Part shown: piece after piece, positions 5,091-41,367 of the stretch
Layout: each line of letters begins with the position of its first letter
Position numbering within the stretch: position 1 is the first letter of the stretch
Source: a virus
DNA: 42,467 nt
Virus record (IMG/VR): IMGVR_UViG_3300017987_000158
Location: 1 to 42,467 of that record
Strand: one strand, 5' to 3'
Program-made: the position numbers and the translations under genes
The notes under the pieces: model-generated
Told to the model about the DNA's origin: nothing
Database searches by the model: none
What the model saw: the letters and a program-made list of their open reading frames with translations, nothing else

Positions 5091-6707
5091 TCATCCCCCC
5101 ATCGCACGACCCTGATCGTTTATCGGATTCCACGGAATATGCTTCACTCGCACCCAAACCTGAGCCCCTGTCGGAACAGGGGAGATCATTGCGTAGTTCT
5201 TGCGCGTCTGCGTATACGGAGCAGAGCCCCAACGCCCCTCCCTGCCGATCGACGCCCAAACGTCCGTATGGTCAAACTGCCATGACCGGCAGGCATTCCA
5301 GCTCGCATGAACGGCACTCACCCACGTTCCATCGTCTCCCTGGGTAACGAACGTCCGAAGGTGAAGACCGCTCGGAGTGGGCAGCTTTTCCATCGCGCCG
5401 AGCAACCACGCCTGATACCGCGCCTGGCGCTCTTCTTCGGTGAGGTCCTGCCCGAGCCAGTACGCGCGTTCGCCGATCACCTTGTTGACCGTGCCGGAGA
5501 TGATGGTCTGCCCTACTTGGTTCTCCACGTCGAATGTCCACTCAACGCTCATGACTCCAACGTCGATTGTGTAGTCGTTCCCCACGAAGCGGATGTAGTC
5601 GTGCGGCTCCGCATTCGGGTACACATAGGGGATCGTGATCCGCACATCCGGCGTTGGATCCATGAGGTCATGAAGGCAGGCGTAAGCATAGTCCTCGGCC
5701 TCTCCCTCAGTGTCGATGCAGGACCCTCGCTCCTCGACAAGGCGCATCTTGCAGTACTTACGCGCCGTCCCGCCTGACGGGATTCCATAGTTGTCGCGCG
5801 AGGTCGAGTCGCTAACGATGATGTTGTTGGTGCGGGCAATCGTCCGGTCGTAGTAGTAGAGTTGAATGAAGTTCCGAACGTCCTCAATGCCCACCTCAAC
5901 GTCGCGAACGGAGAACTGCCCGGTGAACGTGGCGTCTACTCCACGAGCAGCCTGGACCAACGCTGTCTCAGCGCTGAGACCTGTCCCGTAGCGCAGCGGG
6001 TCGTAGAGGACGGGATAGAATCCCTCCCCGCTTGTTGACAACGCAGATCCATCGTTGAATGCGGTTGCGTTTGCCTTGTACCGACAGGCCAGGACGTAGC
6101 CTGTCGGATGGACCGCGTTCTGTAGCGCCTCCCACGTCGTGACCTCGCCCGTCGCGTACGTGTCGATCGCGAAGTTCGGATTGTCCTCAACGACCACGTG
6201 GGCTAGGTTCCCCGAGAACTCTGAGTCGGCCAGAACCGACGCGGTGAGATCAGCGATGGTCCGGCCTTCGTAGACCCACTTGCTCATGCGCTGGTCGCGC
6301 TTGTACCGAGAGGAAATGCCATACGGCTCGAACGACACCGTGTCGTCCATCTCGACCTCAGTGTGTGAACTCGCTCCTAGCGCATAGCCCTGAAAGGCAA
6401 GCTCCCACGAGTCGCCAGCGTCCTTGCGGATGTAGGCACGCACGTCGTGAGACCGTTCGAGCAGAGGGTCGTATACGCTCGATCCATCCTTGTTGAGAGT
6501 CGAACTAGAGTCCAGCGGATCGAGCGAGTTCAGGTTCGGATGATTCGTCAGGTCGACACGGCAGTACCAATCCTTGCGATCGACATCCGAGCCAACGGTG
6601 ATTCGCCTGACGCGATCGGCGATGTTCCTAGTCGTTCCATCGGTATGATCGACCTCGAACTTGAGCAAGACCGCTTGCTTGTTCGTGGCCTTCGTGAAGG
6701 ACCTCAC
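5091..6707 (-). CDS. Baseplate / tail-tip protein
   Basis: A 538-residue protein beginning with GTG (RSFTKATNKQAV), coupled to the end of the tape measure gene by a GTGA overlap. The N-terminal 400 residues are mixed alpha/beta and resemble phage baseplate or hub-type proteins in layout (VRRITVGSDVDRKDWYCRV, FQGYALGASSHTEVEMDDTV). From about residue 425 a fibronectin-III-like domain follows (PSGLHLRTFVTQGDDGTWVS to VWVRVKHIPW). Immediately downstream of the tape measure gene siphophages normally encode distal tail and hub proteins, which fits. Exact subunit (Dit, Tal or hub) is not resolved. Confidence 0.65.
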   Translation of the reverse strand: MRSFTKATNKQAVLLKFEVDHTDGTTRNIADRVRRITVGSDVDRKDWYCRVDLTNHPNLNSLDPLDSSSTLNKDGSSVYDPLLERSHDVRAYIRKDAGDSWELAFQGYALGASSHTEVEMDDTVSFEPYGISSRYKRDQRMSKWVYEGRTIADLTASVLADSEFSGNLAHVVVEDNPNFAIDTYATGEVTTWEALQNAVHPTGYVLACRYKANATAFNDGSALSTSGEGFYPVLYDPLRYGTGLSAETALVQAARGVDATFTGQFSVRDVEVGIEDVRNFIQLYYYDRTIARTNNIIVSDSTSRDNYGIPSGGTARKYCKMRLVEERGSCIDTEGEAEDYAYACLHDLMDPTPDVRITIPYVYPNAEPHDYIRFVGNDYTIDVGVMSVEWTFDVENQVGQTIISGTVNKVIGERAYWLGQDLTEEERQARYQAWLLGAMEKLPTPSGLHLRTFVTQGDDGTWVSAVHASWNACRSWQFDHTDVWASIGREGRWGSAPYTQTRKNYAMISPVPTGAQVWVRVKHIPWNPINDQGRAMGG

Positions 6708-9700
6708 CCGATTCTCCTAGTCAGACCTGATGCGGAATGCGACTTCCCAACGTATTCGCGCCCATTGCGGTCGATCACCTTGACCATATAGTCGGCACAC
6801 TCGCGGTAGAACCCGGAACCGAGATAGACCTTGACATCCATGCCGCCAGCCCCTGCCCCAGCGAACGCGGGAGATCGCCCTATCGGCGCAATCGTTTCTC
6901 CTACATGCGCCTTGACTGCTACCGGAGCACCGATCGGCAATGCCGGCATTCCCGGCAAGGCACCGATCTCCCCTCCGTGTTGGAAGCCCGGCGACAAGAG
7001 GTCGAAGAGGAAGGCAGCCAGCCCGCCGCCGATAGCCCCAAGTGCTGCCGCGCCCCACCGGACAGGATTGATCCCTGCGGTCGCCCCGACGATCGCGCCG
7101 CCAACAACTGCTAGGGCGTAGACAAGCGCGCGCTTCAAAAGCCCGATCTGCGTCTCGATTCCAGACAGCTCGGACTTCACGCCATCGAAGTCCATCAGGC
7201 CGCCGAGTTCGTCGATCCAGTTGTCGATGGACGCCGAGAGTTCATTCCATGTTGGGAGGTTCTCTGTCAGCCAGGCCGCGCCCGCTTCGATTGCGTCCAC
7301 AACGCGGTCTAGCCAGTCTGTCAGGTCCTCGATCCACCCGGGGCCTTCCTCAATGAACCATGTGATCCCGCGTTGGATCCAACTGATGATCCCATCGAGC
7401 GTGATCCCGTTGCGTTCGAGGAAGTCCCCGACGATGCGGATGGACTGGTCGGCCGCATCCATGATGTCCGGAAGGCGCGAGGTGATCCACGACCAGAGCC
7501 GCGACGCTTTCTCGCGAACGCCCTCAAGGATGTCCGTCCAGCTTGAGATCCCGAAGCCCTCGAGCAAGCCGATGATCGCCTCTCCGAGTGCCTGGCCGAA
7601 CGGCTCGGCCCACGGCGGGATTTCGATCTCTGCGCCGCCCCCTGTGGAGGGCGGTGGTTCGCCGGGTCGGATGGCTTCATAGCGTAGCCGCTCCATCTTC
7701 CAGCCGATCGGGACGTTGAGGTTCTGTAGCGCCTCCCTCGTTTCATCGTTGACATCGCTCTGGATGCCGAGCCACTCACGGACCACCTTGATTGCAGCGG
7801 CAATCGGCCACAAGAACTCGCCGATCAAGTCGTAGAACGCCTGCCAGATTGGCCGGGCTTCCTCTTGGATTGCCTGATAGGCCGCGCTCTTTTGGATCAG
7901 GCTTGTGAACGAACTGATGAGGGAGCCGACTACTCCGAGGAGGGCATTGAATCCTTCGACCAGCAAGTCCACGCCCTCGAGCGTCGTCATCTTCACCGCA
8001 GATACCGCGAGGTTCGCCAGTGCGCCGAGGATGCCGCCGCCGCCGAGCAGGCCGGCGATTCGGTCAAACGATGAAACGTAGAAGTCAAGCACCTTCTGCA
8101 GCTCGCGCCGCCGTTCCTCAAGGCCGGAAACGAACATGTCAAGCACAGAGCCCGCGAGGCCAAGCGCGCTCGTGATCGCAGCAAGCGGATCGGTAAGTCC
8201 CTTCTTGAATACGTCGAACAAGCCACTAGCGAACGTGCTGACTTTCTCGGGCAGGACGCCAATTGCCTCTTGGATCAGCGCAGACCATCCTTTGTCAAGC
8301 CACTCCGCCGCCTTCTCCTTCCACGTCTTCTCTGGCGCGAAGAATGCCTTGGCCTCCCCTGCGGCCGCCCTCAGGGCCTCCGCCAAGTCAAACTCGCCAG
8401 CCTGTTCGGCGAGCTGGATTCGCTTCTCGAGGACGCCCAGCAAGTCGCCCTCCATGCCGGTCAACATGTTGAGCACGTCAACCTGATTGAGTCCCGCCAT
8501 CCCAACGCCGGCGAGAACTTCGGAGACCGTCTCCGCTTCAGCCGACAGGGCCGGGAAGTCAGCGGACATCTGACGAATTGCCTCTGCTGCTGTCATCCAG
8601 TCGCCGGTAGCGAGCGCCTGTGCGATGGGCGCTGTGAACTGCTCGCGGAATGCGTCAAGCATGGCCGTTGCCGCATCCTTCGCAGCCTGCTCCTGTTCCC
8701 GGCGCGCTTCCTCAGCTGCCCGCTCTTGTTCCCGGAGTGCCTGCTTGGCCTGGGATTCCGCTTCGCGTGCAGCCGTCTCCTTCTCGCGTGCGGCCTTCTC
8801 TTCAGCGGCCTGCATCTCGGCTGCGATCTCCTCGGGGTTCATTCCGCTCGTGTATTGCTGGATGCGCTGGTAGAGCTCTTCGATCGCTGTCCCGGCCTCC
8901 CCTGTGCCAGCGCCCAAGCGCCACATGCCATCTCGCAGCATGGACAGCACGCCCGATGCGCCGGAGATCTCCGAGATACGCTCCGCCATCTCGCCGATGG
9001 AAAGCTCGGCCTCGTATGCCACCTCCTCCGGGATGCCCTTTGGGATACCCGCCCGCGTTTCAAAGGGAGCGTGCGTCGTGGTTGTGATCGTCTGCGTGCC
9101 CGTAGTCAGCTCTTCGATGACTCGGTCGATCTCATCGAAGATCGTCCCGGCCTCGGAGATCGCCTTTGCCTGGAGGCTCTGTGCGAGCGTCTGGGCGGCA
9201 CTAGCGGCCTGACGCATCGAGGATGCAGCCTCGGCCGCGGCGTCGCTTGTGACCCCCAATGCTCGCTCGAGATAGGCGATCGTGCTTTCTGTCTCTCTAG
9301 TCGCTTGGCCGAAGTCCCTCTGTGCCTCCAGCAAGTCACGTTGCTCAACGAGTGCGCCCTCAAGGATGCTGTGGATCTCTCTGAGCAAGTCGGGCTTGTC
9401 TCCCAGTTCATCGGCGAAGCGGACGAACATGTCGACCAGCTCTCTTGTCGGCGTGCCCATTCCCTCAAGCTGGTCCCAGACGTCTCGGAGCGTGCCGACG
9501 GTGAAACCCGCGAGCTGCTCTCCGTCCTGAATCGCTGCAGTCGTGGACCGCTGTAGCTCGTCGAAGGCGTCGACGATCGCCTGCCAGTTCTCCGGGCGGA
9601 GTTGCTCGGGCAGCGCAGCGAGGTTGGCGACAAAGCTCTCTAGCTGCCTCAGAGACGCGCCGATCATCGCCATCTCTGTTGGCTTGCTGTACTGCTGGCT

Positions 9701-12700
9701 CAGTTGATACAACTCGCCAAGGGCGGCAACCGGGTCGTCGAAGTTGAGTCCGCCAAGCGCTTCCGCCAAAGCAGAGACATCCGCGGCGGAGGTCTGGGTT
9801 TCAGCAGCAACGCGGCCGAGGATGTCCTCCAGTATGGCGATCTCGTCTTCGAGCCCTTCCATGCCGAGGCGCTGGAGCTGCTCGAAGTCGCCGAGCAATG
9901 TACGAGCGGCACTTCCGCCGGAAAGCAGGGCCGCCGGGATCTCGCCATACGTTGCGAGGAAATCCTGAAGCGGGGCGAGAGCCTGCGTTGGGTCTTCCTC
10001 CATTGCCGCTCGAAGCTGCTCGAATGCGTCAGCCCACGCCAGGGCGCTCGCTGCATCCTCTGGACTCGGCACCGCGCCCGGTGCCGTGCCTGGTGCTCCG
10101 CCCGGTGCTTCACCCGGCGGTTGCGGGGCACCCCACGTAAAGACCTGCGGAGGCTGCGCACCGAAAGTCGGTCCAGTTCCTGCCGGTGCCGCCCCAGCCC
10201 CGAACGTGATGCCGCTGAATACGGCCGACGCGGCTCCCTCTGCTTCCTCGGTCATCTCTTCGAGGTCGCCAGTAATCAAGGCAATGGTCGCCCGTAGGTT
10301 GAGGAGGTCGGCCTCCCAGGTCGTTGTCATCTGGCTCATGGCTGTCTCGATGTCGCCAAGGACGGGGAACATGCCCTCCCAATCCGCGAAGAGTTCGCGC
10401 AGGCCAGCATTCCACGCGTCCACGGCTTCTCCCAGCGGGAGGTCCATGACCTCCTTCTGAAGGTCAAACAGGGCAATGGAGAACCGATAGAGTGCCCTAC
10501 GGCCTTGGATGTCTAGATCCTCGGTCTCCTCAATGGCCTCTCGGATGGCGATCCGGATCCTCTCGAAAACGCCGGCCAACTGCTGTTCGCTGCCTGTCGC
10601 GACAGCGAGATTCAGCAGGTAGTCGAGTTGGGCGCCGAACGCCTGCAGGCTTCGCTCTGCCTGTGCAACCGGCCTGTCGATTCCCCCACCAGCGAGCGCC
10701 ATCCCGAGGGCGGTAAGCGCAGAGACGAGAGCGAGGATTGGGTTCGTGAAGACAACGATCGCCGCCAAGGCTGCCCCAACGGCTTCGAGCCCCGTTACAA
10801 CCTGACGCCAGTTACCGATCACCCACTCGAAGGAGCCGGCCAAGGTGCTGAAAAGGCTTTCGAGCGCAGTTTCCAGCGCCCCGGACTCCTCAGCCCACTC
10901 AACAACTCTGTTGACGGTTGGGATTAGCGTGTCCTGTACAAGCCTAGTGAGGATCGGGATGACCTTCTCTCCGATCGTGACCTTGAGCAACTCCCACGAG
11001 CCTCGGAGGACTTCGAGCTGGCCGGAGAGCGTTTGCAGGCGAACTTCGGCCATCTCCCGCGCGGCACCACTCGCGTTCTCGAGCAGTGTCACCATCTCGC
11101 GCAGTCCATCGTTGTTCTGAATCAGCGCCGCGAGGGCCGGCCCGGCGCGCTTGCCGACCATTGCGATGACCTCAGCAGTTGTCGCTCCGTGCTCTGTGAG
11201 CACTCCGAGAATCTCCGAGAACTGCAGCAACTCGCCGCCCGGCCCCGTGATGTCCGCGAGGCTCACTCCCATCTCGTGTAGCTGGTCTACAAAGTCACCA
11301 GACGTAGCGATGAGTTCGGAGAAGGCAAAGCGAAGGGAGGTGCCGGCCATCGAGTTGCCGGATACAATGGCTTTCCCGTTCCGCCGCACAATGAGGAGGT
11401 GGTTTGGAACTTCGGCACAGAATACCTCTCCGTCGTATTCAACCCATCCCTCAAACGCCTCGTGGCGCGATCCATCTAGTCTCGCACCATGTGCGCCCGT
11501 GTATTCACTCGGCGTGAACCATGGGTGCGATCGCTTGCGGATATTGACCTTCCATTGGTCAAAACGAGCGCGGATCGGCCGCCCCTCTGATTCCAGATTC
11601 GTCTCATGGCCAGCACGCGCAACCAGGTATATTGATGTAGAGAACCCTAGCTTGAGCGCGGTCTCCATAACATCGTCGCGAAGCTGGATGGAAGATGTGT
11701 AGTATGCTCCGTTTTGGTCTCCGTCTCCTTCAATCAAGGCCGCGAGCAGGAGCCGCAACAACCTCGGAGACCACTCCTTCGCGTACTGTGGAATGCGCTT
11801 TTCATGAGCCTTCCCAAGCCGACGAACTTCATTCCAAAGCTGCTGATTGGTGATCGAAAAGCCATCCTTGCTTTCAACAACAGCCCACGGGAGCATGGCG
11901 AGAACACTGCGCATCCGGTCGCGCACATCCCCAGGGCGCTGAGTGATCCTCACGCGGTAGTTACCGCGATGCACATCCGAACTCCCCTCTGAGATGTACC
12001 ACCCCAGAAATGCCGCCCAAAGCTCAGCGTCGACCTCAAGCGCGGAGACTTCCTTCACCCAACTACCGCGATACTGCTGGAATCCTGGGAGTCGATACGT
12101 AGCAGCATCATTGCCGCGCCATTCCATTGCGCCCGTTTGATAGCGTACTTGCCGCCCAGCAACTTCTTCGGCCGTCAAAACCTCATAGGCCTCTTGCCCG
12201 CGTCCCATAACCCACATCCGGTGATCTGGCGTGACAGACAAGTCAATTGATTGGTTCCGCACTTGATACATGCACCCATTGTGCCGATAGCGCACAAGCC
12301 GCGACGGGCTCTGGTACTCAATCTCGTTGGACTCTGGATTCAATGTGGCAAACTCGTCGTCCATGCGCGCGTCTTGCCACGAGATCCATCCGCGGCGCGT
12401 TAGCACATCCGTCTGGTCGTCGTAACAACCTTGAATGCCAACATCGCCGAGCTTCGCTACAGCAGCCACGGTTTCCTCGAGTGAGAACCCGGCCGATCGC
12501 GCGATGGGTGCGATGTACTTCAGGGATTCGCCAAGCATGGTGACCGTCGTGTTAGAGCTGGCCGCCGCCTGGGCGAGAACGTCAGCAACTCGCGTGCTCT
12601 CAGAGGCTTCGAGGCCAAGCGCGCGGATGGTCTTCGACGCGATGTCCGCCGCCTCGCCGAGGGAGATGGACGCCGCGGCGGCCATGTCGGCAACGCCGGC

Positions 12701-13087
12701 CATTGAGCCGATGATCTCAGTCGTGGAGAATCCCGCGCGGCCCAGCGCCTCCATGCCGGCCGCGATGTCTGTCATGGTGAACTTGGTCGTCTTGCCGAGT
12801 TCCTTGGCCGTCTGCTCAAGCTGCTCGAATTGCTGGGCGGTCGGCTGCGTGACGGCCCGCACGTCGGCCATCGCCTGCTCGAAGCTAGCGGCTGCACTGA
12901 CGACAGAGTTGAGGCCCTTGACTACAGCAGCAATGCCGACGACGCCGATGGCGATCGTGGCGAACTTCGCCATGCGGCCATGCCAGCCGCGAAGCGTGTT
13001 TCCCGCCGCGAGTAGGCCAGCATTGAGCCCCTGCTGGCGGGCCATGAGGTCAAAGTAAGCTGTGCCAAGGGCTTCGCCTTGTGCCAT
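6704..13087 (-). CDS. Tape measure protein interrupted by an intein
   Basis: A protein of 2127 residues, the longest gene, directly after the tail chaperones. Residues 40-220 show the TP901-type tape measure core (ASFEQAMADVRAVT, FTMTDIAAGMEALGRAGFST). At residue 220/579 the conserved motif GIQG-SMAGTSLR is split by a 358-residue intein (221-578). Then come long Ala/Glu-rich helices, a charged coiled coil (EKAAREKETAAREAESQAK) and, near the C-terminus, hydrophobic segments (LVYALAVVGGAIVGATAGI) as in many tape measure proteins. After splicing the protein would have 1769 residues; at about 1.5 angstrom per residue the tail would be roughly 260 nm. The start ATG directly follows the recurrent motif. 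It ends in a GTGA overlap with the next gene. Confidence 0.93.
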   Translation of the reverse strand: MAQGEALGTAYFDLMARQQGLNAGLLAAGNTLRGWHGRMAKFATIAIGVVGIAAVVKGLNSVVSAAASFEQAMADVRAVTQPTAQQFEQLEQTAKELGKTTKFTMTDIAAGMEALGRAGFSTTEIIGSMAGVADMAAAASISLGEAADIASKTIRALGLEASESTRVADVLAQAAASSNTTVTMLGESLKYIAPIARSAGFSLEETVAAVAKLGDVGIQGCYDDQTDVLTRRGWISWQDARMDDEFATLNPESNEIEYQSPSRLVRYRHNGCMYQVRNQSIDLSVTPDHRMWVMGRGQEAYEVLTAEEVAGRQVRYQTGAMEWRGNDAATYRLPGFQQYRGSWVKEVSALEVDAELWAAFLGWYISEGSSDVHRGNYRVRITQRPGDVRDRMRSVLAMLPWAVVESKDGFSITNQQLWNEVRRLGKAHEKRIPQYAKEWSPRLLRLLLAALIEGDGDQNGAYYTSSIQLRDDVMETALKLGFSTSIYLVARAGHETNLESEGRPIRARFDQWKVNIRKRSHPWFTPSEYTGAHGARLDGSRHEAFEGWVEYDGEVFCAEVPNHLLIVRRNGKAIVSGNSMAGTSLRFAFSELIATSGDFVDQLHEMGVSLADITGPGGELLQFSEILGVLTEHGATTAEVIAMVGKRAGPALAALIQNNDGLREMVTLLENASGAAREMAEVRLQTLSGQLEVLRGSWELLKVTIGEKVIPILTRLVQDTLIPTVNRVVEWAEESGALETALESLFSTLAGSFEWVIGNWRQVVTGLEAVGAALAAIVVFTNPILALVSALTALGMALAGGGIDRPVAQAERSLQAFGAQLDYLLNLAVATGSEQQLAGVFERIRIAIREAIEETEDLDIQGRRALYRFSIALFDLQKEVMDLPLGEAVDAWNAGLRELFADWEGMFPVLGDIETAMSQMTTTWEADLLNLRATIALITGDLEEMTEEAEGAASAVFSGITFGAGAAPAGTGPTFGAQPPQVFTWGAPQPPGEAPGGAPGTAPGAVPSPEDAASALAWADAFEQLRAAMEEDPTQALAPLQDFLATYGEIPAALLSGGSAARTLLGDFEQLQRLGMEGLEDEIAILEDILGRVAAETQTSAADVSALAEALGGLNFDDPVAALGELYQLSQQYSKPTEMAMIGASLRQLESFVANLAALPEQLRPENWQAIVDAFDELQRSTTAAIQDGEQLAGFTVGTLRDVWDQLEGMGTPTRELVDMFVRFADELGDKPDLLREIHSILEGALVEQRDLLEAQRDFGQATRETESTIAYLERALGVTSDAAAEAASSMRQAASAAQTLAQSLQAKAISEAGTIFDEIDRVIEELTTGTQTITTTTHAPFETRAGIPKGIPEEVAYEAELSIGEMAERISEISGASGVLSMLRDGMWRLGAGTGEAGTAIEELYQRIQQYTSGMNPEEIAAEMQAAEEKAAREKETAAREAESQAKQALREQERAAEEARREQEQAAKDAATAMLDAFREQFTAPIAQALATGDWMTAAEAIRQMSADFPALSAEAETVSEVLAGVGMAGLNQVDVLNMLTGMEGDLLGVLEKRIQLAEQAGEFDLAEALRAAAGEAKAFFAPEKTWKEKAAEWLDKGWSALIQEAIGVLPEKVSTFASGLFDVFKKGLTDPLAAITSALGLAGSVLDMFVSGLEERRRELQKVLDFYVSSFDRIAGLLGGGGILGALANLAVSAVKMTTLEGVDLLVEGFNALLGVVGSLISSFTSLIQKSAAYQAIQEEARPIWQAFYDLIGEFLWPIAAAIKVVREWLGIQSDVNDETREALQNLNVPIGWKMERLRYEAIRPGEPPPSTGGGAEIEIPPWAEPFGQALGEAIIGLLEGFGISSWTDILEGVREKASRLWSWITSRLPDIMDAADQSIRIVGDFLERNGITLDGIISWIQRGITWFIEEGPGWIEDLTDWLDRVVDAIEAGAAWLTENLPTWNELSASIDNWIDELGGLMDFDGVKSELSGIETQIGLLKRALVYALAVVGGAIVGATAGINPVRWGAAALGAIGGGLAAFLFDLLSPGFQHGGEIGALPGMPALPIGAPVAVKAHVGETIAPIGRSPAFAGAGAGGMDVKVYLGSGFYRECADYMVKVIDRNGREYVGKSHSASGLTRRIG
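11354..12427 (-). mobile_element. Intein with LAGLIDADG homing endonuclease domain
   Basis: In-frame insertion of 358 codons (residues 221-578 of the tape measure protein). Block A starts at Cys221 (CYDDQTDVLTRRGW). Block B is DLSVTPDHRMWV (about 282-293). Two LAGLIDADG-type helices are visible, LGWYISEG (361-368) and LAALIEGDG (448-456), each with an acidic residue. Block F is GEVFCAEVPNHLLIVRRNG and block G ends VSGN578, followed by Ser579 as +1 nucleophile. The usual penultimate His is Gly. Sampled lines of this stretch look lower in GC than the flanks, consistent with later arrival. All splicing residues except that His are present, so splicing is likely but unproven. Confidence 0.92.
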
Positions 13088-13088
13088 G

Positions 13089-13098
13089 GCCTGACCGC
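13089..13098 (-). repeat. Start-associated motif copy 2
   Basis: GCGGTCAGGC, one base before the ATG of the tape measure gene, preceded by AAGGAAG. Confidence 0.8.
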
Positions 13099-13102
13099 CT
13101 TC

Positions 13103-13411
13103 CTAGGGGTGTCTTGTCGGCACCCCCTTCATCCTGCACTCCGCATCGAGCCAGATCTCGTCGTCTACCATCGGGCTAGGAGCCGCCGCGCGGATGACTT
13201 CTATGCCGTCCTCGCCATACATGCCGGCTGGATTCTGTGCGCGCTCTAGCGAGGCCTTGGCGCACACGAGATCTATCGCATAGCCGAACTGGATGTCGTC
13301 CAGGTCCCACACAAACTCGACGCCGAAGATCGCCTTGAGGTTGAGGCCTGCTACAATTCCGGCGTACTCTCGGACGTTGAGTTCGCTTCCAGCTCGGTCG
13401 CGGATTCCCCC
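13103..13411 (-). CDS. Tail assembly chaperone, frameshift extension (T part)
   Basis: This frame has no start of its own where expected. It opens just after a TGA that lies immediately before the GGGGGAA site and runs in the -1 frame past the TAG of the first chaperone gene. Its sequence (NVREYAGIVAGLNLKAIFGV, then EFVWDLDDIQFGYAIDLVCA) looks coding well before its first ATG. A -1 slip gives a fused protein of 329 residues (13103-14091). This is the lambda G/GT arrangement seen upstream of most tape measure genes. The product would help the tape measure protein and tail tube assemble and is usually absent from the virion. Frameshifting is inferred from frames and position. Confidence 0.75.
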   Translation of the reverse strand, partial: GGIRDRAGSELNVREYAGIVAGLNLKAIFGVEFVWDLDDIQFGYAIDLVCAKASLERAQNPAGMYGEDGIEVIRAAAPSPMVDDEIWLDAECRMKGVPTRHP

Positions 13412-14091
13412 GTGTCACCACCTGCCTCTTCAGCAAAGAACTCTTTAGCCGTCTCTGGCTCTTCCCCTGAAATCTCACCATCCCTCATGTTCACAAGGCC
13501 TGTCACGGACAGGAACATCGCATCAAGCAAGTTCCCGTTGTCGCCAGCAAGCCAGCGGTCTACGAAGTCGCGATTGAGTAGAATCTTGTTGCCGGCGCTA
13601 TCAAGTGCCGGCTTGCCGTTGTCTGGGTCAATGACTTGCTCGCCGCCGTGCGCTTGTCGTAGCGACATGGCGATTGCGTCCATCATCAGTTCGCGGTCGA
13701 AGTCTGGGAACAGTTCCTTGGCGTAGGACCCCCACGTTAGGTATATGTTCGACTGCCTCCGGGTTTTGATGAACTCAACATCGCGTTCATCCATGTCCTT
13801 GAAAGGAATGTCCATATCGATCCCGCGCTCAATGGCTTCTGTGATAGTCTTCTTGTGGGCTTCGTCTACTGCCTCGGCCCACCGGACTGCAGCAGTGTTA
13901 CGCAGCGTTGAGAGCGAGAAGTCCATCCGCTCGCCGCGTTCCTTCTGCGCCGCGCGGACCATCTTCTCCAGCTTCGCCTGCCGCCCCAACGAGAGGCGGG
14001 GGAGCTCAACAGCCACCCCCGCCACCTCGAAGGACTTTGAATGCTCGCTCTGCTGTGCCGCCTCATACGACCGCAACAGATTCGACTTCAC
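13351..14091 (-). CDS. Tail assembly chaperone (G-like)
   Basis: A 246-residue protein with a GTG start after GGGGGGAATC. It is helical and acidic (FEVAGVAVELPRLSLGRQA near the start; a Glu/Ser/Thr-rich tail ending TSESTPEL). The FDRELMMDAIAMSLRQAH and LLNRDFVDRWLAGDNGNLLD regions fit tail-chaperone folds. Its place between the major tail protein and the tape measure gene is the standard site of the chaperone pair. A fraction of ribosomes is expected to slip at 13405-13411 to make the longer form. No homologue search was possible. Confidence 0.72.
   Translation of the reverse strand: MKSNLLRSYEAAQQSEHSKSFEVAGVAVELPRLSLGRQAKLEKMVRAAQKERGERMDFSLSTLRNTAAVRWAEAVDEAHKKTITEAIERGIDMDIPFKDMDERDVEFIKTRRQSNIYLTWGSYAKELFPDFDRELMMDAIAMSLRQAHGGEQVIDPDNGKPALDSAGNKILLNRDFVDRWLAGDNGNLLDAMFLSVTGLVNMRDGEISGEEPETAKEFFAEEAGGDTGESATELEANSTSESTPEL
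13405..13411 (-). promoter_or_regulatory. Candidate -1 frameshift slippery site
   Basis: The minus strand reads ACG GGG GAA in the first chaperone frame, a run of five G followed by AA. A tRNA on GGG can re-pair one base back on GGG. The -1 frame has a TGA directly upstream of this site and is open from here to 13103, so any shift must occur between here and the TAG at 13351. No downstream pseudoknot was worked out. Confidence 0.55.
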
Positions 14092-14101
14092 GATTCCCCC
14101 C

Positions 14102-15202
14102 TTACACTTCCGTGAATCCCGGAATCCCCGAAGGCACCAGAGTCACTGTGCGCGTCTGTATGCCGTCTCGCTCAATGCCATGCTCGACCGAGCTGATCCG
14201 GCACGGACACTCCCACCGCTCATAGCTATTCCCCTTGCGGGTGAATGCCACGAGGAAGGTCTCGACGTCCTCTGCGACCTCGGGATAGGTATCCGACCCG
14301 TTCCACCATGTTTCGATCGGGCCGATCTCCTTCGTGTGCATCGTTGGCGTATGCTTGGGATACGCCCCATCGCCGAACTCCGTCGTCTCCCGCATCTCAA
14401 CGCGCTCTGACACGGCGAGGTTTCCGTGTGCCCCGTTCAGCTTCTCGAGGAAACGGAACTCGAGGTTGTCGAAGTAGCTCGTCTGCGAGCCGGCGCCGAT
14501 ACTCGTTGTCACCTTCACCATGACTCGCTGCGTCGTTGCGGGCGCTTCGGTAAAGAGCGACCAGTAGCCCCACTTCGCATCGCCGTACCACTTGTTGTTC
14601 GCTTCGATCGTATCCTGAGCAGAGGCCAACGCTGTTCCGTTGGAATCCTGGAACTCGACGTACAGAGTGCCCGTATTCGTCGTGGGTAGCTTGGCCCACA
14701 CAGAAGCGACGCCCGACACTGACGCTGTGAGCGACGTGTCGAATGTGCGAACCTGGTAGAGGCCACATTCGCCCAAGGCCTTGTTGACGACCTTCGCGCC
14801 GTAGGACCGCTCATTCCAGCCCTTCAGGGCTTCGACCGTTACCGTATCGCCGGCACCAGCCGACGCGACAATCGGCGTCCAGAAGTAGATCTCATAGGAC
14901 TCGTTCGTGTCCATGATGTCTGCGTCGAGTGTTAGCTCGCCGCTGTCTACAACGGCTGCGACTGTCGCATAGGTCGCATCGCTTGTGTTGTGAACGACCG
15001 CCCCAAGCAGATCCTTGGTGAATCCGCCGTCTGCATCGTGTAGCTTGAGCGCCTCTTTGTCATCGGCCTTGCTTGCGAGAATCACCGGCCAGTTGCTCAA
15101 CTCCAAGTCGGAATCGCGCATGAGCTGATACGTCGTCTGCGAAGAGATCTGAACGTCCTTCGCCTTCCAGAGGACGGCGAGATAGCCTTTCTTCGTCGCC
15201 AT
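14102..15202 (-). CDS. Major tail (tube) protein with CBM-like insertion
   Basis: A protein of 366 residues. The N-terminus (MATKKGYLAVLWKAKDVQIS) and the C-terminal 110 residues (HTKEIGPIETWWNGSDTYPE to RTVTLVPSGIPGFTEV) look like a tail tube domain. Residues about 150-260 form an inserted beta domain (SVSGVASVWAKLPTTNTGTL to SYFDNLEFRFLEK) like the CBM4/9 jelly rolls that decorate some phage surfaces. The start of the neighbouring upstream protein (15220-15624) is similar, suggesting two related tube-type subunits. SD GGGGGTGAGGGCAG precedes the ATG. Located just upstream of the chaperones, the normal position. Confidence 0.7.
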   Translation of the reverse strand: MATKKGYLAVLWKAKDVQISSQTTYQLMRDSDLELSNWPVILASKADDKEALKLHDADGGFTKDLLGAVVHNTSDATYATVAAVVDSGELTLDADIMDTNESYEIYFWTPIVASAGAGDTVTVEALKGWNERSYGAKVVNKALGECGLYQVRTFDTSLTASVSGVASVWAKLPTTNTGTLYVEFQDSNGTALASAQDTIEANNKWYGDAKWGYWSLFTEAPATTQRVMVKVTTSIGAGSQTSYFDNLEFRFLEKLNGAHGNLAVSERVEMRETTEFGDGAYPKHTPTMHTKEIGPIETWWNGSDTYPEVAEDVETFLVAFTRKGNSYERWECPCRISSVEHGIERDGIQTRTVTLVPSGIPGFTEV

Positions 15203-15219: not shown

Positions 15220-15624
15220 CTACAGCCCGACCGTGCTCGGCGTACCGTAGAAGAGCCACGTGATGTTGACCGTCTGCACGTCATCCATCGAGGCACCCCA
15301 CTCGATCGCCTCGCACAGCGCACTGCCGGAAAGGAGAGTCGTTCCGCTCGCTGTATCCTTGATCGTGAGCAGTTTCGAGGTGTCGTTGGTCATGCACGAC
15401 TGTGCAGCAACGATCGCCACGTTGGTCGCATCCCACAGCACCGGCAGTGTCATCCGAATCGGATCGTACATGCCGCCTTCAAAGACCCTGTACGGCACGT
15501 TGCCGTCACCGATGCACGTGAACTCGATCTGATTTCGCGTGCGGCCGACACGGACTTCGCCGCGAGTCTGCACCTGCGTTCCCGAGAACTCTACGTACCC
15601 GAGATACCCCTTCCTATTCGCCAT
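15220..15624 (-). CDS. Tail tube-like structural protein
   Basis: A 134-residue protein starting MANRKGYLGYVEFSGTQVQ, close to the start of the 366-residue protein next to it. It is beta-rich (RVGRTRNQIEFTCIGDGNVP, ASMDDVQTVNITWLFYGTPS) with no membrane segment, as expected for a tail tube or tail-tube initiator subunit. Its SD (GGGGGTGAGGAAAG) lies inside the 3' end of the sulfotransferase-glycosyltransferase gene, and the two overlap by 11 bases, so translation is probably coupled. Which of the two proteins forms the tube shaft is not resolved. Confidence 0.6.
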   Translation of the reverse strand: MANRKGYLGYVEFSGTQVQTRGEVRVGRTRNQIEFTCIGDGNVPYRVFEGGMYDPIRMTLPVLWDATNVAIVAAQSCMTNDTSKLLTIKDTASGTTLLSGSALCEAIEWGASMDDVQTVNITWLFYGTPSTVGL

Positions 15625-17221
15625 CTTTCCTCACCCCCATGCCTGACCGCCATGTGTGTGTCGCCTGCTCCAAGTGACTGAGCAAGCTCGCCTTCATCTC
15701 TTCGCCTACGCTTGCGACGCCGTTCTGGAATTGCTTCCGCCCAACATCTGCAAGCAGCTTGTTCGCGTCTGCTATGTCAATCCTCACGTAGTGCCTACAC
15801 AACGCCGTGTAGTCCACGTAGGTTTCAAAGCCCAAGTCCTTCGCCTTGCGGAAGAACACGAAGTCCTCGCCCCAGCCCTTCGTGCCCCATTCGTCGGTTT
15901 CCTCCCATGCAAACACTCCATGCGGCATGGCTTCCATTACTTCTGCCTTGACCAAGCAACAGGCTAGGCTCGCAATGTCTACCCTCTGAACCCCCGGGCT
16001 GTTCGGCTCGCGGTAGTGCGGTGAGTACCCATTCGCCTTCTCATTCCAGTTGAGGGCAATGTGCATCGGCCCATGATCCTTCCATGCCTGAACGAGGAAG
16101 CCACAGATGTCCTTGTCGTGTCGCAGAAGTACATCGATGGCGTCCTCCGGCGGCTCCGTATCCGAATCGACCCACAGCATGTGCGTAAACGGACGGATGC
16201 CCTTGCCCCTCAGCCGCTCTTGTGTCTGCACGAACTCCCGGTGGCAGACGTTCCGTGCGCGGTGATGAGGCACGACGTTCATCGGTCCGTATACATGCAG
16301 GACGTACTTTCCTGACTCGCCCCACTCGAATAGCCGCTTGGCCGTCGGCCACGCGATGTCCACCTTGTTCGGCATGGCGATGAAGATGCGCGGCTTGTCG
16401 AGCACATCCCCCGCCGTCGCCCCAACGAGCTTCTCAGAGACGTGAACCTGCGCCACGTCTCCTGCCGGCGCACGCTTCGTCAATCGCCCGGACTCATCGC
16501 GGACAAGCTCGTAGCTGTTGCCTTCAGCGTCTTCGCGCACGGGATTCGCGCCAGCAACGTCGCTCGGGCCTACGTTGTAATGCGCGTCGTCGTAGTCGTA
16601 GGATTCAATCCCGAGGAATGCGAAGATCCGATCCTGCTCTTCGTGGCTACTCAGATCCTCCATTCGCACGACCAGTACGTTGTCATGCTCCTTGGCCATC
16701 TCCATGATCGCGCGGTTGTAGTCGTCGTAGTAGCGGCCCAACGCCTCGCGCTTGGTCTCCGCATCGTAGGACGGATGGATCATCGACCAGATGTTTCGCT
16801 GCCACTTCGTCCCGTCGTGGTCGATCCAGTGGTTGACCCCATCCTCGCCGCCCGTCTTCTTCACGAACGACTCGACGAACGCCTGCTTGTCTGCGCGGAT
16901 CAGCGCAATGACCTTGAAGTCGGGGAAGTCCTCCGCGATGTTGTCGAGGTAGGGCAGCCAGAAGCTCGCAACATCGCCAACAAGCCGATGCGTCTTCAGC
17001 CGCTCCTTGAACCGCTCGGCGTGAATGCGATACGGCTGCATCGGATCTTCAAGACCGTAGACCCGGCGCAGAATCTCTCGCTCCTCCTGAGTCGCTTCCT
17101 CCTTCAGCCAAGGCATGAGCGGCTCGGCTTCATGCGTCACCTTGCAGCCGTCCTGCTTGTTCAGCAGGCGAGCAAGAGACACCGTGCCACAACGCCCTGT
17201 TCCGATCCCGATTACCAACAT
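15614..17221 (-). CDS. Sulfotransferase-glycosyltransferase fusion
   Basis: A protein of 535 residues in two parts. The N-terminal half begins with the PAPS-binding loop type GTGRCGTVSL (residues 7-16) and has KVIALIRADKQAFVESF (about 103-119) in the place of the 3'-phosphate-binding Arg/Ser segment of sulfotransferases. MPWLKEE and VVRMEDL also fit that family. The C-terminal half (about 275-480) looks like a GT-A glycosyltransferase: MLWVDSDTEPPEDAID contains the DxD-type metal site (352-354), and GWGEDFVFFRKAKDLGFETY is the WGED-type acceptor/catalytic segment. The ATG follows the recurrent motif. It lies between tail terminator and tail tube genes, with an 11-base overlap. Modification of a virion protein or a host surface glycan is inference. 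Confidence 0.8.
   Translation of the reverse strand: MLVIGIGTGRCGTVSLARLLNKQDGCKVTHEAEPLMPWLKEEATQEEREILRRVYGLEDPMQPYRIHAERFKERLKTHRLVGDVASFWLPYLDNIAEDFPDFKVIALIRADKQAFVESFVKKTGGEDGVNHWIDHDGTKWQRNIWSMIHPSYDAETKREALGRYYDDYNRAIMEMAKEHDNVLVVRMEDLSSHEEQDRIFAFLGIESYDYDDAHYNVGPSDVAGANPVREDAEGNSYELVRDESGRLTKRAPAGDVAQVHVSEKLVGATAGDVLDKPRIFIAMPNKVDIAWPTAKRLFEWGESGKYVLHVYGPMNVVPHHRARNVCHREFVQTQERLRGKGIRPFTHMLWVDSDTEPPEDAIDVLLRHDKDICGFLVQAWKDHGPMHIALNWNEKANGYSPHYREPNSPGVQRVDIASLACCLVKAEVMEAMPHGVFAWEETDEWGTKGWGEDFVFFRKAKDLGFETYVDYTALCRHYVRIDIADANKLLADVGRKQFQNGVASVGEEMKASLLSHLEQATHTWRSGMGVRKDGE
15641..15650 (-). repeat. Start-associated motif copy 3
   Basis: GCGGTCAGGC inside the 3' end of the fusion gene, followed at once by ATGGGGGTGAGG, 16 bases before the ATG of the tube-like gene. 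That ATG is in the frame of the fusion gene. Confidence 0.75.
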
Positions 17222-17222
17222 G

Positions 17223-17232
17223 GCCTGACCGC
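17223..17232 (-). repeat. Start-associated motif copy 4
   Basis: GCGGTCAGGC, one base before the ATG of the sulfotransferase-glycosyltransferase gene, preceded by GGAGAAAG. Confidence 0.8.
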
Positions 17233-17239
17233 CTTTCTC

Positions 17240-17674
17240 CTAGATCACCGTCTTGTATCGCTTGAACCCCTGGTGATACCCCGCGCCCTTGATGTCGTGG
17301 AACTCATGCGCCGGCCCAAGTAGCCCGTCTAGCCGGACCTTGCTCACACCTGCCAGCGTCAACTCCGCGCCGTCTAGTGCGCCCTCTACCGCCTCGCCTA
17401 CCGCCAAGTAGCTCGCGTAGGTCGCCGCGAACCAACTCACCTGCAAGCTCGGGAACCGCACTGCTACGGCGCTGTTGCCCGTCACGCCGATCAAGTAGTC
17501 CTCGCGATTCGACAGTGGGCAGTCGATCACGATGTACGGATAGCTCGGGCTGTCTGGTATCTCGCCGCGCAGGTACACGCCGCTCAGACTCCCATCTGCC
17601 ACCAGCGCCGACGTTGCGGAGTCCGTGGCCAGCGTATTCTTGACGTGCCATGCAAGCTGCGCCTGCCAGCCCAT
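17240..17674 (-). CDS. Tail terminator / completion protein (DUF3168-like)
   Basis: A protein of 144 residues starting MGWQAQLAWHVKNTLATDSA. The layout (an N-terminal helix with a short loop, SPSYPYIVIDCPLSNREDYL, then beta strands and an AVEGALDGAEL helix) fits the gpU/gp17-like tail completion family that caps the tail tube at the head end. The start is fixed by a TGATG overlap with the gene upstream. It follows a gp10-like neck protein and precedes the fusion enzyme and the tube proteins, the conventional position. Assignment is by pattern and order. Confidence 0.65.
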   Translation of the reverse strand: MGWQAQLAWHVKNTLATDSATSALVADGSLSGVYLRGEIPDSPSYPYIVIDCPLSNREDYLIGVTGNSAVAVRFPSLQVSWFAATYASYLAVGEAVEGALDGAELTLAGVSKVRLDGLLGPAHEFHDIKGAGYHQGFKRYKTVI

Positions 17675-18096
17675 CACTCCTCGCCCCCAAAGAATGCACC
17701 GCCTGTCCGTCCTTGGGTGTACTTCAGGTCCACACCAAGGATCTTCTGCCAGCGATCCCAGCATTCATCCTTTGTCAGCGTGATCCATGGGCGCGGGTCC
17801 ATGTTTTCGGTCCCTGTTTCCAGATGCTTCGCATAGATGAGCTTCTTTCCGCCAGCCGTCATGCTAAGAACACCCCAATATCCCGTAAGGCGGTTCCCAT
17901 CTAGTTTGAACGTGATGCGCCCTTTCAGTGTCGCGGTATCTACATGCGGGTACTCATATGCCTTCGACGGTTCTCCCGTGCGTTCCATGTTTTCCTTGGC
18001 TGTCGCAACAGCCAGGACACAGCAATCGCGCAGCTTCTCCATCACAGCGTCCCGGGCCATTCTCTCGAAGGCCTTCGTGTTGATCGTTACACTCAC
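17674..18096 (-). CDS. HK97 gp10-like neck protein
   Basis: A protein of 140 residues. It begins with a helix (AFERMARDAVMEKLRDCCVL) and has the family's characteristic YAKHLETGTENMDPRPWI, equivalent to the YA-x-x-x-E-x-GT...xxRPF signature of gp10-like head-tail joining proteins. The C-terminal 40 residues (ILGVDLKYTQGRTGGAFFGG) are flexible. It couples to the tail terminator by TGATG and overlaps the upstream head closure gene by 4 bases. Expected at the neck between the connector and the tail. Confidence 0.75.
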   Translation of the reverse strand: MSVTINTKAFERMARDAVMEKLRDCCVLAVATAKENMERTGEPSKAYEYPHVDTATLKGRITFKLDGNRLTGYWGVLSMTAGGKKLIYAKHLETGTENMDPRPWITLTKDECWDRWQKILGVDLKYTQGRTGGAFFGGEE

Positions 18097-22207: not shown

Positions 22208-24262
22208 CTACTGCGTGTTCACCACGCCTACGTCGTAGTTCCAACGCACTCCGTAGAGGTAGAAGTCATCCGTGTCCGCCGTAGAGGTCAGCTCGACGAT
22301 CAGGTAGGTATCGTCGCCGGTGAGGTCCGTATCCTGGCCAATGCCCGTGCTGTTGGTCACAAGGCTGGCCCACCCTCGCGCCGTGGTATCGGGAACAGCC
22401 AGCGTGTCGGTAAGGATCGCCGTGGTGTTGCCGTACTCGAACAGCCGCACGTCCATGTTGCATTCCTCGTTGGTTTGCTCGTGGACGTTGAACTGGAGAA
22501 CCAGCGAGCCGGTCTGCCCGTTGTCGAGCCACAGCGGAGGCAGCGGGATTGCGAATCGACAGTAGTCCGCCGCATCGCCAATCGACACGTAGCCCTCAGT
22601 AGATCCGACAGAAGCCGCGCCACCGTCAAGGCCAGCACAAGTCAGTGGCATACCGCCGCCGAGCACCTCAAGGCCATTCACCGACGGCGTCTGCGCATCG
22701 GTGTTGTAGCCAATGCCGAACACCATGAACCGTTCGTCAAGCGAGTTGGTCGTCAGCGAGATCGTCCCGGCCGTCGATGAGATGTTCCCACCGGTGACCG
22801 TCGCAGTACCGTCAGTCAGAGAACCACCAGTAACCGCGCCGTCGCTCGTGATCGCGCCGTTTGCTTGGATGACACCTGCCGTGGAAAGCGAGACGCCGGT
22901 CGAGCCGTAGCCACCGCCGATCGCTGCACTGTCGGCCGTCAGGGATCCGTCTGTCGTGATCGCCCCGTTAGCCTGAATCACGCCAGCCGCCGACACCGTG
23001 ACTCCCGTCGCGCCGTAGCCGCCGCCAATCGTTGCGTAGGTGATGCTGCCCGTCTGGCAGGTCATCGTTGTGAACGTGCCAGCCCCGGCAGATCCTGCGC
23101 CGATTGTCGCGCCGTCGACCGTCCCGCCGTTGATGTCCGCTGTAGTGACCGAACCAAGATTCGCAATCGTTGCGCCGGCAAAGGTGGCCGTAGTCGTCAC
23201 CGTCAGGTCCTGGATGGACGCATCGTCTGCTACCGTGAGGTCCCCGCCAGTGCCTAGAAGCGTGATCGACCCAGTCTGCGATGTATTGCCTGTTCGATAG
23301 ACTGCCCCAACATGCGTCAGAGCCCCCGCGATGTTCACCGCGTCATCGATGTCAACCACGTCAAGATTGGTTATCCCGTCCACGTCAAGATCGCCCGTGA
23401 CATCGGCATCGTCCCCGACGGTCAGGTCGCCGCCTGCACCGATCAAGGTGACCGACCCTGTCTGAGTGGTATCGCCTGTAATCCCCAGGCTTGTCAGCCC
23501 CGTCAAGTCGCCGCTGGTCAACGTAGCCGTGCCGTCTGTAAGGGACGTGACAGTCGTTGCGTCCAGTGCGGCCGCCCCAACGAAATCGAACCCACCACCA
23601 GCCGTCCAGGTAAGCGCCTTGCTCGAACCCGTCTGCGTGATCGTCACATTGCCGGTCGTATCAGCAACTGAGATCTTCATCCACGAGTCAGCGTCGTAGC
23701 CGACGTAGTAGGACGGTGTGTAGAATGCGAGCGACGTGTCATTCGTCCACGTAGTCGCCTCGCCTGATCCAGCCTGAGTGATCGCCAGAACGCCGGTCGT
23801 GTCTGTCACCGCGAACTTCAGGTACGCCCCAGCGTCGTAGCCAATCGTGTAGCTCGGCGTGTAGAAGCTCAGTGATGTTCCGTTCGTCCATGAGGTCGCC
23901 GGCGCACTCCCAGCGTGCGTAATCGCCAGCACGCCAGTTGTGTCCGATACTGCGAACCTGATGTATGCCCCGGAATCATAGCCGAACGTCTGGCTCGATC
24001 CGTAGAATGCTGATGCCCCAGTGAACGACACCACGCCGACTAGGCTGATGTTCGTCTCTGTGATCGTCAGCGTGCTCGCCGTTGTGTTGTCAAGTTGCGC
24101 CCCGCCTACTAGGTCCATCCGCCCCGTGCTCGTAATGCCCCAGATGCAGGTAGACCCGTCTGGTGCCACGCGCCAGATGTGATAGTCCGAAGTACTGATG
24201 GCAAACGAAGACGCCGCCGCCAGCAAGACTACTCCCAGCGCGAGGACAAGTGCTCTCTTCAT
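22208..24262 (-). CDS. Sec-exported repeat protein in the head operon
   Basis: A protein of 684 residues. A canonical signal peptide (MKRALVLALGVVLLAAASSF, then A; cleavage before ISTSDY) opens it. Three tandem repeats of about 45 residues follow, starting GYDSGAY, GYDAGAY and GYDADSW, each with DTTG and an aromatic SFYTPSY-type end (the third is degenerate). Then comes a long Gly/Thr/Asp-rich repetitive region (GGDLTVGDDADVTGDLDVDG) typical of beta-helical fibres, and a globular C-terminal domain of about 180 residues. The ATG follows GGGGGTGAAAGAG; an in-frame ATG lies at 24277. It lies between portal and protease, an unexpected place for an exported protein. Role unknown: head fibre or surface adhesin are possibilities. 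Confidence 0.75.
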   Translation of the reverse strand: MKRALVLALGVVLLAAASSFAISTSDYHIWRVAPDGSTCIWGITSTGRMDLVGGAQLDNTTASTLTITETNISLVGVVSFTGASAFYGSSQTFGYDSGAYIRFAVSDTTGVLAITHAGSAPATSWTNGTSLSFYTPSYTIGYDAGAYLKFAVTDTTGVLAITQAGSGEATTWTNDTSLAFYTPSYYVGYDADSWMKISVADTTGNVTITQTGSSKALTWTAGGGFDFVGAAALDATTVTSLTDGTATLTSGDLTGLTSLGITGDTTQTGSVTLIGAGGDLTVGDDADVTGDLDVDGITNLDVVDIDDAVNIAGALTHVGAVYRTGNTSQTGSITLLGTGGDLTVADDASIQDLTVTTTATFAGATIANLGSVTTADINGGTVDGATIGAGSAGAGTFTTMTCQTGSITYATIGGGYGATGVTVSAAGVIQANGAITTDGSLTADSAAIGGGYGSTGVSLSTAGVIQANGAITSDGAVTGGSLTDGTATVTGGNISSTAGTISLTTNSLDERFMVFGIGYNTDAQTPSVNGLEVLGGGMPLTCAGLDGGAASVGSTEGYVSIGDAADYCRFAIPLPPLWLDNGQTGSLVLQFNVHEQTNEECNMDVRLFEYGNTTAILTDTLAVPDTTARGWASLVTNSTGIGQDTDLTGDDTYLIVELTSTADTDDFYLYGVRWNYDVGVVNTQ

Positions 24263-24282
24263 CTCTTTCACCCCCATGTTTC

Positions 24283-40634: not shown

Positions 40635-41367
40635 CGCCATCGGCCCTCTCAACAAGTTCGCCCGTCAGCACTTGCCCGTTCGCAAGACGGATTGTCGCGG
40701 TGGATTTCGGCTCGCCTGTGAATCCAGTCACAACGAGCTTCCCGTGAACGATTTCGCCAGAATCATGAGACCCACAACGGATTTCGTCGTCTCCTTCATC
40801 CAGCTCCAGCTTCCACGGAGCCAAACCCGCGAACAATCGGCCCCCGAATGCAAGCCCCTCCTTGCAGGTGATCGACAATCCCGCATGAATGCCGAAACCG
40901 GCCTTGATGTACCGGCCGGCCTTGATGAACTCGCCGGCCTCGATGTACCAGCCGGCCTTGATGTACCAGCCGGCCTTGATGGACCAGCCGGCCTTGATGA
41001 ACCAGCCGGCCTTGATGAACCAGCCGGCCTCGATGTACCCGCCGGCCTTGATGTACCCGCCGGCCTTGATGGACCAGCCGGCCTTGATGAACCAGCCGGC
41101 CTTGATGAACCAGCCGGCCTCGATGTACCCGCCGGCCTTGATGTACCCGCCGGCCTTGATGAGCCAGCCGGCCTCGATGGACCCGTCGGCCTTGATGCCC
41201 GAGCCGGTCTTGGCGACAATCATCCCAGTAGCTGCAATGCTGCCTTCGACGTAGACGGACCCAAGGTTCGCCTCGAATCGAAGATGCCCGACAATCTGGG
41301 AGAGGTCGGCCCTCCCGACGTACTGCCCGTTTTCTACCTGTGACTTGTCAACTACATATGTCTCCAC
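40627..41367 (-). CDS. Hexapeptide-repeat (beta-helix) protein
   Basis: 246 residues from GTG after AAAGGAGG. Residues about 55-168 are 19 hexads of the form G-x-x-I-K/E-A (for example GWFIKA, GGYIEA, GWSIKA), the pattern of a left-handed beta-helix. Trp, Phe or Tyr recur at positions 2-3. The flanking parts are globular (LRFEANLGSVYVEGSIAATG; a C-terminal beta domain with GSHDSGEIVHGKLVVTGFTG). The region shows an exact 90-bp tandem duplication. A bactofilin-like or surface role is only an analogy. Confidence 0.7.
   Translation of the reverse strand: METYVVDKSQVENGQYVGRADLSQIVGHLRFEANLGSVYVEGSIAATGMIVAKTGSGIKADGSIEAGWLIKAGGYIKAGGYIEAGWFIKAGWFIKAGWSIKAGGYIKAGGYIEAGWFIKAGWFIKAGWSIKAGWYIKAGWYIEAGEFIKAGRYIKAGFGIHAGLSITCKEGLAFGGRLFAGLAPWKLELDEGDDEIRCGSHDSGEIVHGKLVVTGFTGEPKSTATIRLANGQVLTGELVERADGDV
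40864..41205 (-). repeat. 18-bp tandem repeat array (hexad codons)
   Basis: About 19 units of 18 bases encoding G-x-x-I-x-A. Not a CRISPR: no spacers, and the frame is kept throughout. Confidence 0.9.
40981..41160 (-). repeat. Exact 90-bp tandem duplication
   Basis: Bases 40981-41070 and 41071-41160 are identical. Each copy encodes five hexads. Identity at all positions, silent ones included, suggests recent expansion. Confidence 0.9.

Follow-up and report, generated by a model that had tools for sequence, protein, structure and literature searches.

The window analysed here is the whole 42,467-nucleotide stretch of the IMG/VR virus record IMGVR_UViG_3300017987_000158. Its minus strand encodes, within the tail operon, a single protein in which a predicted sulfotransferase (ST) half is followed by a predicted glycosyltransferase (GT) half (Table 1). 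A reading-frame check of the window showed the gene to be intact from ATG to TAG over 535 codons, and its 3' end shares 11 nt with the beginning of the gene that follows. The combination of a PAPS-loop-type N-terminus with a GT-A-type C-terminus in one chain, first noticed in an earlier note made from the sequence, is thereby borne out: there is one intact frame, both halves match families, and the motifs can be located.

Table 1. Positions in the window of the fusion gene, its parts and its neighbours.
Feature	Position	Strand	Basis
ST-GT fusion gene, 535 aa	15614..17221	minus	open frame; both halves identified; same in sister contig
Ribosome-binding site GGAGAAAGG ahead of fusion gene	17232..17240	minus	sequence; begins on the final base of the upstream stop codon
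Predicted sulfotransferase half, residues 1 to about 250	16472..17221	minus	PF17784/PF13469; model and PDB folds; end from G002 relative
GTGRCG, residues 7-12, 5'-phosphosulfate-binding type loop	17186..17203	minus	kept in relatives
R109...S118, likely 3'-phosphate-binding pair of PAPS	16868..16897	minus	invariant in 11 relatives; role by analogy
Linker between halves, about residues 251-274	16400..16471	minus	low-confidence ends of both models
Predicted GT-A glycosyltransferase half, residues about 275-535	15617..16399	minus	phrog_1574; model and PDB folds
DSD (352-354), DxD metal/donor motif	16160..16168	minus	conserved in almost all of some 30 phage relatives
E452-D453 of WGED (450-453)	15863..15868	minus	conserved in almost all relatives
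H477, probable third metal ligand	15791..15793	minus	invariant column, alignment A5; role by analogy
Tail completion (gp17-like) gene, 174 aa, directly upstream of fusion	17240..17764	minus	PF11367, 25.2 bits, cut-off 24.5
134-aa tail-region protein, start inside fusion gene	15220..15624	minus	11-nt overlap
366-aa tail-region protein, possible acceptor	14102..15202	minus	position

Genomic context of the fusion gene

Read along the minus strand, the head part comprises portal, a 689-aa protein, a protein resembling proteases, capsid, a 130-aa protein, head-tail adaptor and head closure. These are followed by a 140-aa protein, the Tail_completion_gp17 protein, the fusion, the 134-aa and 366-aa proteins, and then by probable tail chaperones (identified by position), the tape measure and tail tip or fibre proteins. 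The fusion is therefore a phage GT linked to virion genes. Of the neighbours proposed in the earlier note, the terminator gene is supported by a PF11367 match above the cut-off. For the tail tube genes, profile searches found no family match for the 134-aa and 366-aa products, so that calling either of them tail tube is an assignment by position. The two tail proteins with CBM-like domains, from which the same note had drawn a sugar-based theme, gave no family match that would confirm them.

The 689-aa protein encoded between portal and protease (22208-24277, minus strand) has a signal-peptide-like start, 2.2% K+R, 25% S+T and a pI of 4.05, and matched no family in profile searches; we regard it as a candidate for a surface or decoration role and as a possible glycan acceptor. 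The tape-measure gene (6704-13087, minus strand) contains an intein-like insert right behind its TP901 domain, and TIGR01760 matches the protein in two stretches. The layout of the insert is GIQG, then CYDDQTDVLTRRGW ... TPDHRM ... ISEGS ... IEGDGD ... IVSGN, then S, and no Pfam intein model matched it at E 0.01.

A sister contig of 52,114 bases (IMGVR_UViG_3300017989_000148) is 99.97% identical to the window over 39.8 kb and represents the same phage; its fusion gene is 100% identical, without a single difference. Because the contigs join at window position 1328/1347, the 52-kb contig seems to be a nearly complete, circularly permuted copy of the phage. Its extra content includes a gene for a large serine recombinase, and the window phage may therefore be temperate. 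The alignment of the two contigs breaks and overlaps at about 40988-41120 of the window, an array of about 18-bp repeats encoding 'IKAGW/IKAGG' repeats, the copy number of which probably differs between them.

Predicted folds and conserved residues of the two halves

Residues 3-189 of the fusion protein match Sulfotransfer_4 (PF17784; 44.7 bits against a cut-off of 22.8, E 1.9e-11) and residues 4-206 match Sulfotransfer_3 (PF13469; 30.6 bits, cut-off 27). By these matches the N-terminal half belongs to the PAPS-dependent sulfotransferase superfamily and is predicted to transfer sulfate. The GTGRCGTVSL motif occupies residues 7-16, and an alignment with eleven ST relatives shows conservation of GTGRCG, R109, S118, several W/P positions and the pair H30-E31, which is invariant; by analogy, R109 and S118 likely bind the 3'-phosphate of PAPS. 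The stand-alone 272-aa ST of phage G002 is 47.5% identical and aligns as far as residue 241, and we therefore placed the end of the domain near residue 250. We modelled the two halves separately, since in the full-length alignment (A4) GT N-termini bled into the ST half. The AlphaFold2 model of the ST half has a mean pLDDT of 86.9 and a pTM of 0.86. Its first 32 matches in the PDB are all sulfotransferases (E 5e-6 to 2e-4, TM about 0.4-0.5), with P-loop kinases ranking later. The best fold matches are the human tyrosylprotein sulfotransferases TPST2 and TPST1, with other sulfotransferases close behind, but the TPSTs are eukaryotic and share 15-20% identity with the ST half over the aligned columns.

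No APS kinase was matched in the window phage, and no PAPS reductase, the only two matches for the latter lying in the contig of the capsid-ST-GT halovirus L022 (G008, 12506-14420) as two genes of the PAPS-reductase family. A viral APS kinase gene (PF01583, E 3e-55) is found at L149:4046-4789, within a few genes of an ST belonging to the same family and beside another ST-like gene, and could be a virus-encoded supply of PAPS.

In the C-terminal half, residues 321-477 match phrog_1574 (E 6e-10) and phrog_34859, annotated as 'glycosyltransferase' (E 4e-5), while the Pfam GT models gave no match to the window protein. The model of this half (pLDDT 84.7, pTM 0.79) retrieves GT-A enzymes from the PDB, namely the viral protein A197 of STIV (E 2e-10), COLGALT1, LH3, Mnn9 and ppGalNAc transferases, and the sequence profile likewise finds A197 and Mnn9. 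On this basis of family and fold the half is assigned to GT-A glycosyltransferases of the phrog_1574 family, with a predicted activity of sugar transfer. D352/D354, E452/D453 and H477 fall on columns conserved across about thirty phage relatives, the last being a probable metal ligand by analogy. A197, the best PDB match by both fold and sequence profile, is an essential viral GT that possibly glycosylates the coat protein (PMC10551542); it differs from the window protein in being a single-domain enzyme of an archaeal virus, without a sulfotransferase. Structure prediction and fold search of each half, the check suggested in the earlier note, thus returned sulfotransferase and GT-A folds with good confidence. 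Since both are of the expected classes, the proposal was not overturned by the absence of either fold, the outcome that had been named as fatal to it.

The most hydrophobic 19-residue stretch of the fusion protein is weak (mean 1.3), which suggests that the enzyme is probably cytosolic, in the compartment where virions assemble.

Origin and recurrence of ST-GT pairs

The most related phage found, G002 (IMGVR_UViG_3300031111_000017), clearly shares with the window phage its ST and two further genes. Unlike in the window phage, ST and GT are separate genes in G002, and a second GT is present, upstream of a tail-region gene that encodes a large protein of 1378 aa. One G002 GT (32% identical, E 2e-28) lies between the tail terminator (phrog_176) and the major tail protein (phrog_885), which is the slot of the fusion. 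BLAST found nothing between the neighbouring tail proteins of the two phages, and the synteny is therefore drawn from profile matches and position. The fusion thus unites two genes that are separate in G002 and occupies the place of one of the two. In the ST phylogeny the window protein pairs with G002 (support 97/99), and in the GT phylogeny it clusters with both G002 GTs (100/96) and away from fusion proteins of planctomycetes.

These planctomycete proteins, encoded in five genomes (L110, L133-L136; in three of them on single contigs of >7 Mb), are chains of 455-456 aa which, like the window protein, combine an N-terminal ST with a C-terminal phrog_1574 GT (E 8e-4 to 2e-21 in the C-terminal halves checked). 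They are found in bacterial genomes and not in a virion operon, whereas each half of the window protein is nearest to the separate genes of G002. A third arrangement is encoded at L143:4480-6633, a viral chain of 717 aa composed of an N-terminal part without assignment, a GT2 domain (PF00535, E 1e-15) and a C-terminal ST, so that a different GT family is present and the order is reversed (GT-ST). This gene lies beside tail-like genes.

To test whether the phage and planctomycete fusions go back to one event, all GT fusion halves were forced together, and this was rejected (p-AU 7.8e-5); the test was made on the GT half, the resolution of the ST tree being too low to add to it. With L143, which has another GT family and the reverse order, ST and GT have been joined three times separately, which by the usual domain-fusion argument suggests that both enzymes work on the same product.

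We collected ST-family sequences from viral contigs and one genome scan; the loci are not a random sample. Among them, ST is fused to or immediately beside a GT at 13 of 19 loci (planctomycetes counted as one; five of the 13 are one clade), with GT partners from several different families and few GTs elsewhere in the pieces examined. GT neighbours were judged by Pfam and other profiles; a purpose-made generic GT2 profile found nothing and was set aside. In Salinibacter-type haloviruses (L016, L017, L019, L022 and L002) the capsid gene is followed by ST, then by a GT2/B4GALNT1-like GT and connectors. This cassette resembles the window locus in having the same ST family beside a GT in a virion operon, but differs in that it consists of two genes, its GT is of the GT2, B4GALNT1-like kind, and it follows the capsid gene instead of lying in the tail block. 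The pair is also present in the halovirus L021, where the capsid gene is off the piece, and L145 has a pair of the same kind. In two bacterial MAGs (L108 and L109) a GT92-type and a Gly_transf_sug gene lie directly upstream of ST, and in L144 and L147 GT2 and Gly_transf_sug/Caps_synth genes flank it on both sides. At the six other loci (L015, L018, L146, L148, L149 and L150) no fused or adjacent GT was seen, L015 having GTs elsewhere and L148 only a weak GT2 match.

The GT family of the window protein also occurs near virion genes, phrog_1574-type GTs being found at a distance of one or two genes from capsid in L036, L075, L028, L089 and the Manatee Spring phages. Viral sulfotransferases are not new, since a library of predicted structures contains several from phages and giant viruses, in addition to two giant-virus proteins named glycosyltransferase that contain the matching fold. 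The earlier note knew of no phage with this exact arrangement. Planctomycete ST-GT chains and the reverse chain of L143 show that the arrangement is not unique; among the phage records searched there was no other chain in the order of the window, and none covers 80% of either fusion. Scans of IMG/VR for such chains returned the same phage only in the window order, plus L143. We conclude that the fusion architecture is real and recurrent, a case of phage-encoded glycan modification machinery with relatives and not an isolated one.

Proposed function and alternatives

We propose, with a probability of roughly 0.57, that the fusion protein is a two-step enzyme which first glycosylates a virion protein and then sulfates the added sugar from host PAPS. 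It would be a soluble enzyme produced in the cytoplasm alongside the tail proteins during late expression. Its C-terminal GT-A domain would use a host nucleotide-sugar as donor to glycosylate a virion protein, be it tail tube, another tail protein or capsid, its N-terminal ST domain would next sulfate that sugar, and the resulting virions would bear short, sulfated, negatively charged glycans. The repeated fusion of ST and GT, including the reverse order in L143, is as expected for consecutive steps. The earlier note had considered either modification of a virion protein or an enzyme carried in the tail. Its placement of the gene among virion genes stands, and that a virion protein is modified has the best support, since homologues of both ST and GT are found repeatedly within the virion operons of viruses that are unrelated.

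Several observations count against this proposal. In G002 the ST gene lies near the terminase genes, apart from the GTs, and the DxD motif of GT1 reads DER. At five loci (L018, L150, L144, L147 and L148) ST is found among other sugar or biosynthesis genes and virion genes are unproven, so the ST family is not confined to virions. Since at L018, L150, L144 and L147 these gene groups resemble sugar biosynthesis, the enzyme could instead modify a host surface polysaccharide or lipid-linked glycan, leading to receptor alteration or superinfection exclusion, with the virion left unmodified. The chromosomal location of the planctomycete fusions and the large serine recombinase of a phage that may be temperate are consistent with this, but we consider it unlikely, given that the fusion gene lies in a late virion operon with translational overlap, that its product has no strong hydrophobic segment, and that relatives in other viruses adjoin capsid or tail genes. 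The TPST folds at the top of the ST matches raise a different objection, namely that sulfate could go to tyrosine. One chain would then make two separate modifications, with ST sulfating a virion protein at tyrosine or some other side chain while GT glycosylates a different site. The TM-scores are only about 0.5, however, with other sulfotransferases scoring almost as well, and the pairing of ST with several unrelated GT families fits a glycan acceptor better, which makes this reading distinctly improbable.

Nucleotide modification systems based on glycosyltransferases and sulfotransferases have been reported in phages (PMC10829341), and it is conceivable that the enzyme glycosylates and then sulfates bases of the phage DNA. 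Such a role is disfavoured and in our view very improbable: neither the phage nor five relatives yielded a base hydroxymethylase of the thymidylate-synthase type (PF00303) in a search that detected its positive control, there was no Tet_JBP match either (its positive control also gave no match), and the fusion gene lies in the tail operon and not with DNA genes. We give the least credence of all to a fusion protein packaged in the tail and acting on the host at entry, the other possibility raised in the earlier note, which found no support beyond the position in the tail operon; other viruses have relatives of it downstream of the capsid gene, and the donors that the two enzymes require, PAPS and nucleotide-sugar, are cytosolic.

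Modification of a virion protein by the phage's own enzyme has precedents. Mycobacteriophages such as Che8, Corndog and Myrna are described as glycosylating capsid and tail tube with GTs that they encode; the paper names no sulfotransferase (PMC12363180). Sulfation of virion glycans by a viral enzyme would, if true, be the new element of our proposal, and a search of the open-access literature, with subscription papers outside its scope, returned no report of it. We likewise know of no description of virus-encoded sulfation of virion glycans, and phage-encoded virion glycosylation itself is known in a few cases.

If the two-step proposal is true, phage particles would be coated with sugar of strongly negative charge, with possible effects on salt stability, adsorption and recognition. 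For a broader proposal we would stop somewhat short of even odds: that tailed phages make sulfated glycans on their own particles, and that the GTGRCG ST and a GT form a two-step module for decorating virions that was put together on several occasions, either as adjacent genes or as a single chain, giving a capsid-ST-GT cassette in salt-lake viruses and a tail-operon fusion here. It would suggest a function for many 'hypothetical proteins', among them the ST gene of the GTGRCG family carried by 184 Salinibacter phage records (in the order capsid-ST-GT2-connector where checked) and the phrog_1574 GTs found repeatedly near capsid or tail genes. In L002 (18309-21450) and these 184 records the capsid gene is followed by ST and a GT2-like gene, these genes being labelled only as hypothetical, and phages of this kind infecting Salinibacter ruber M8 are cultivable.
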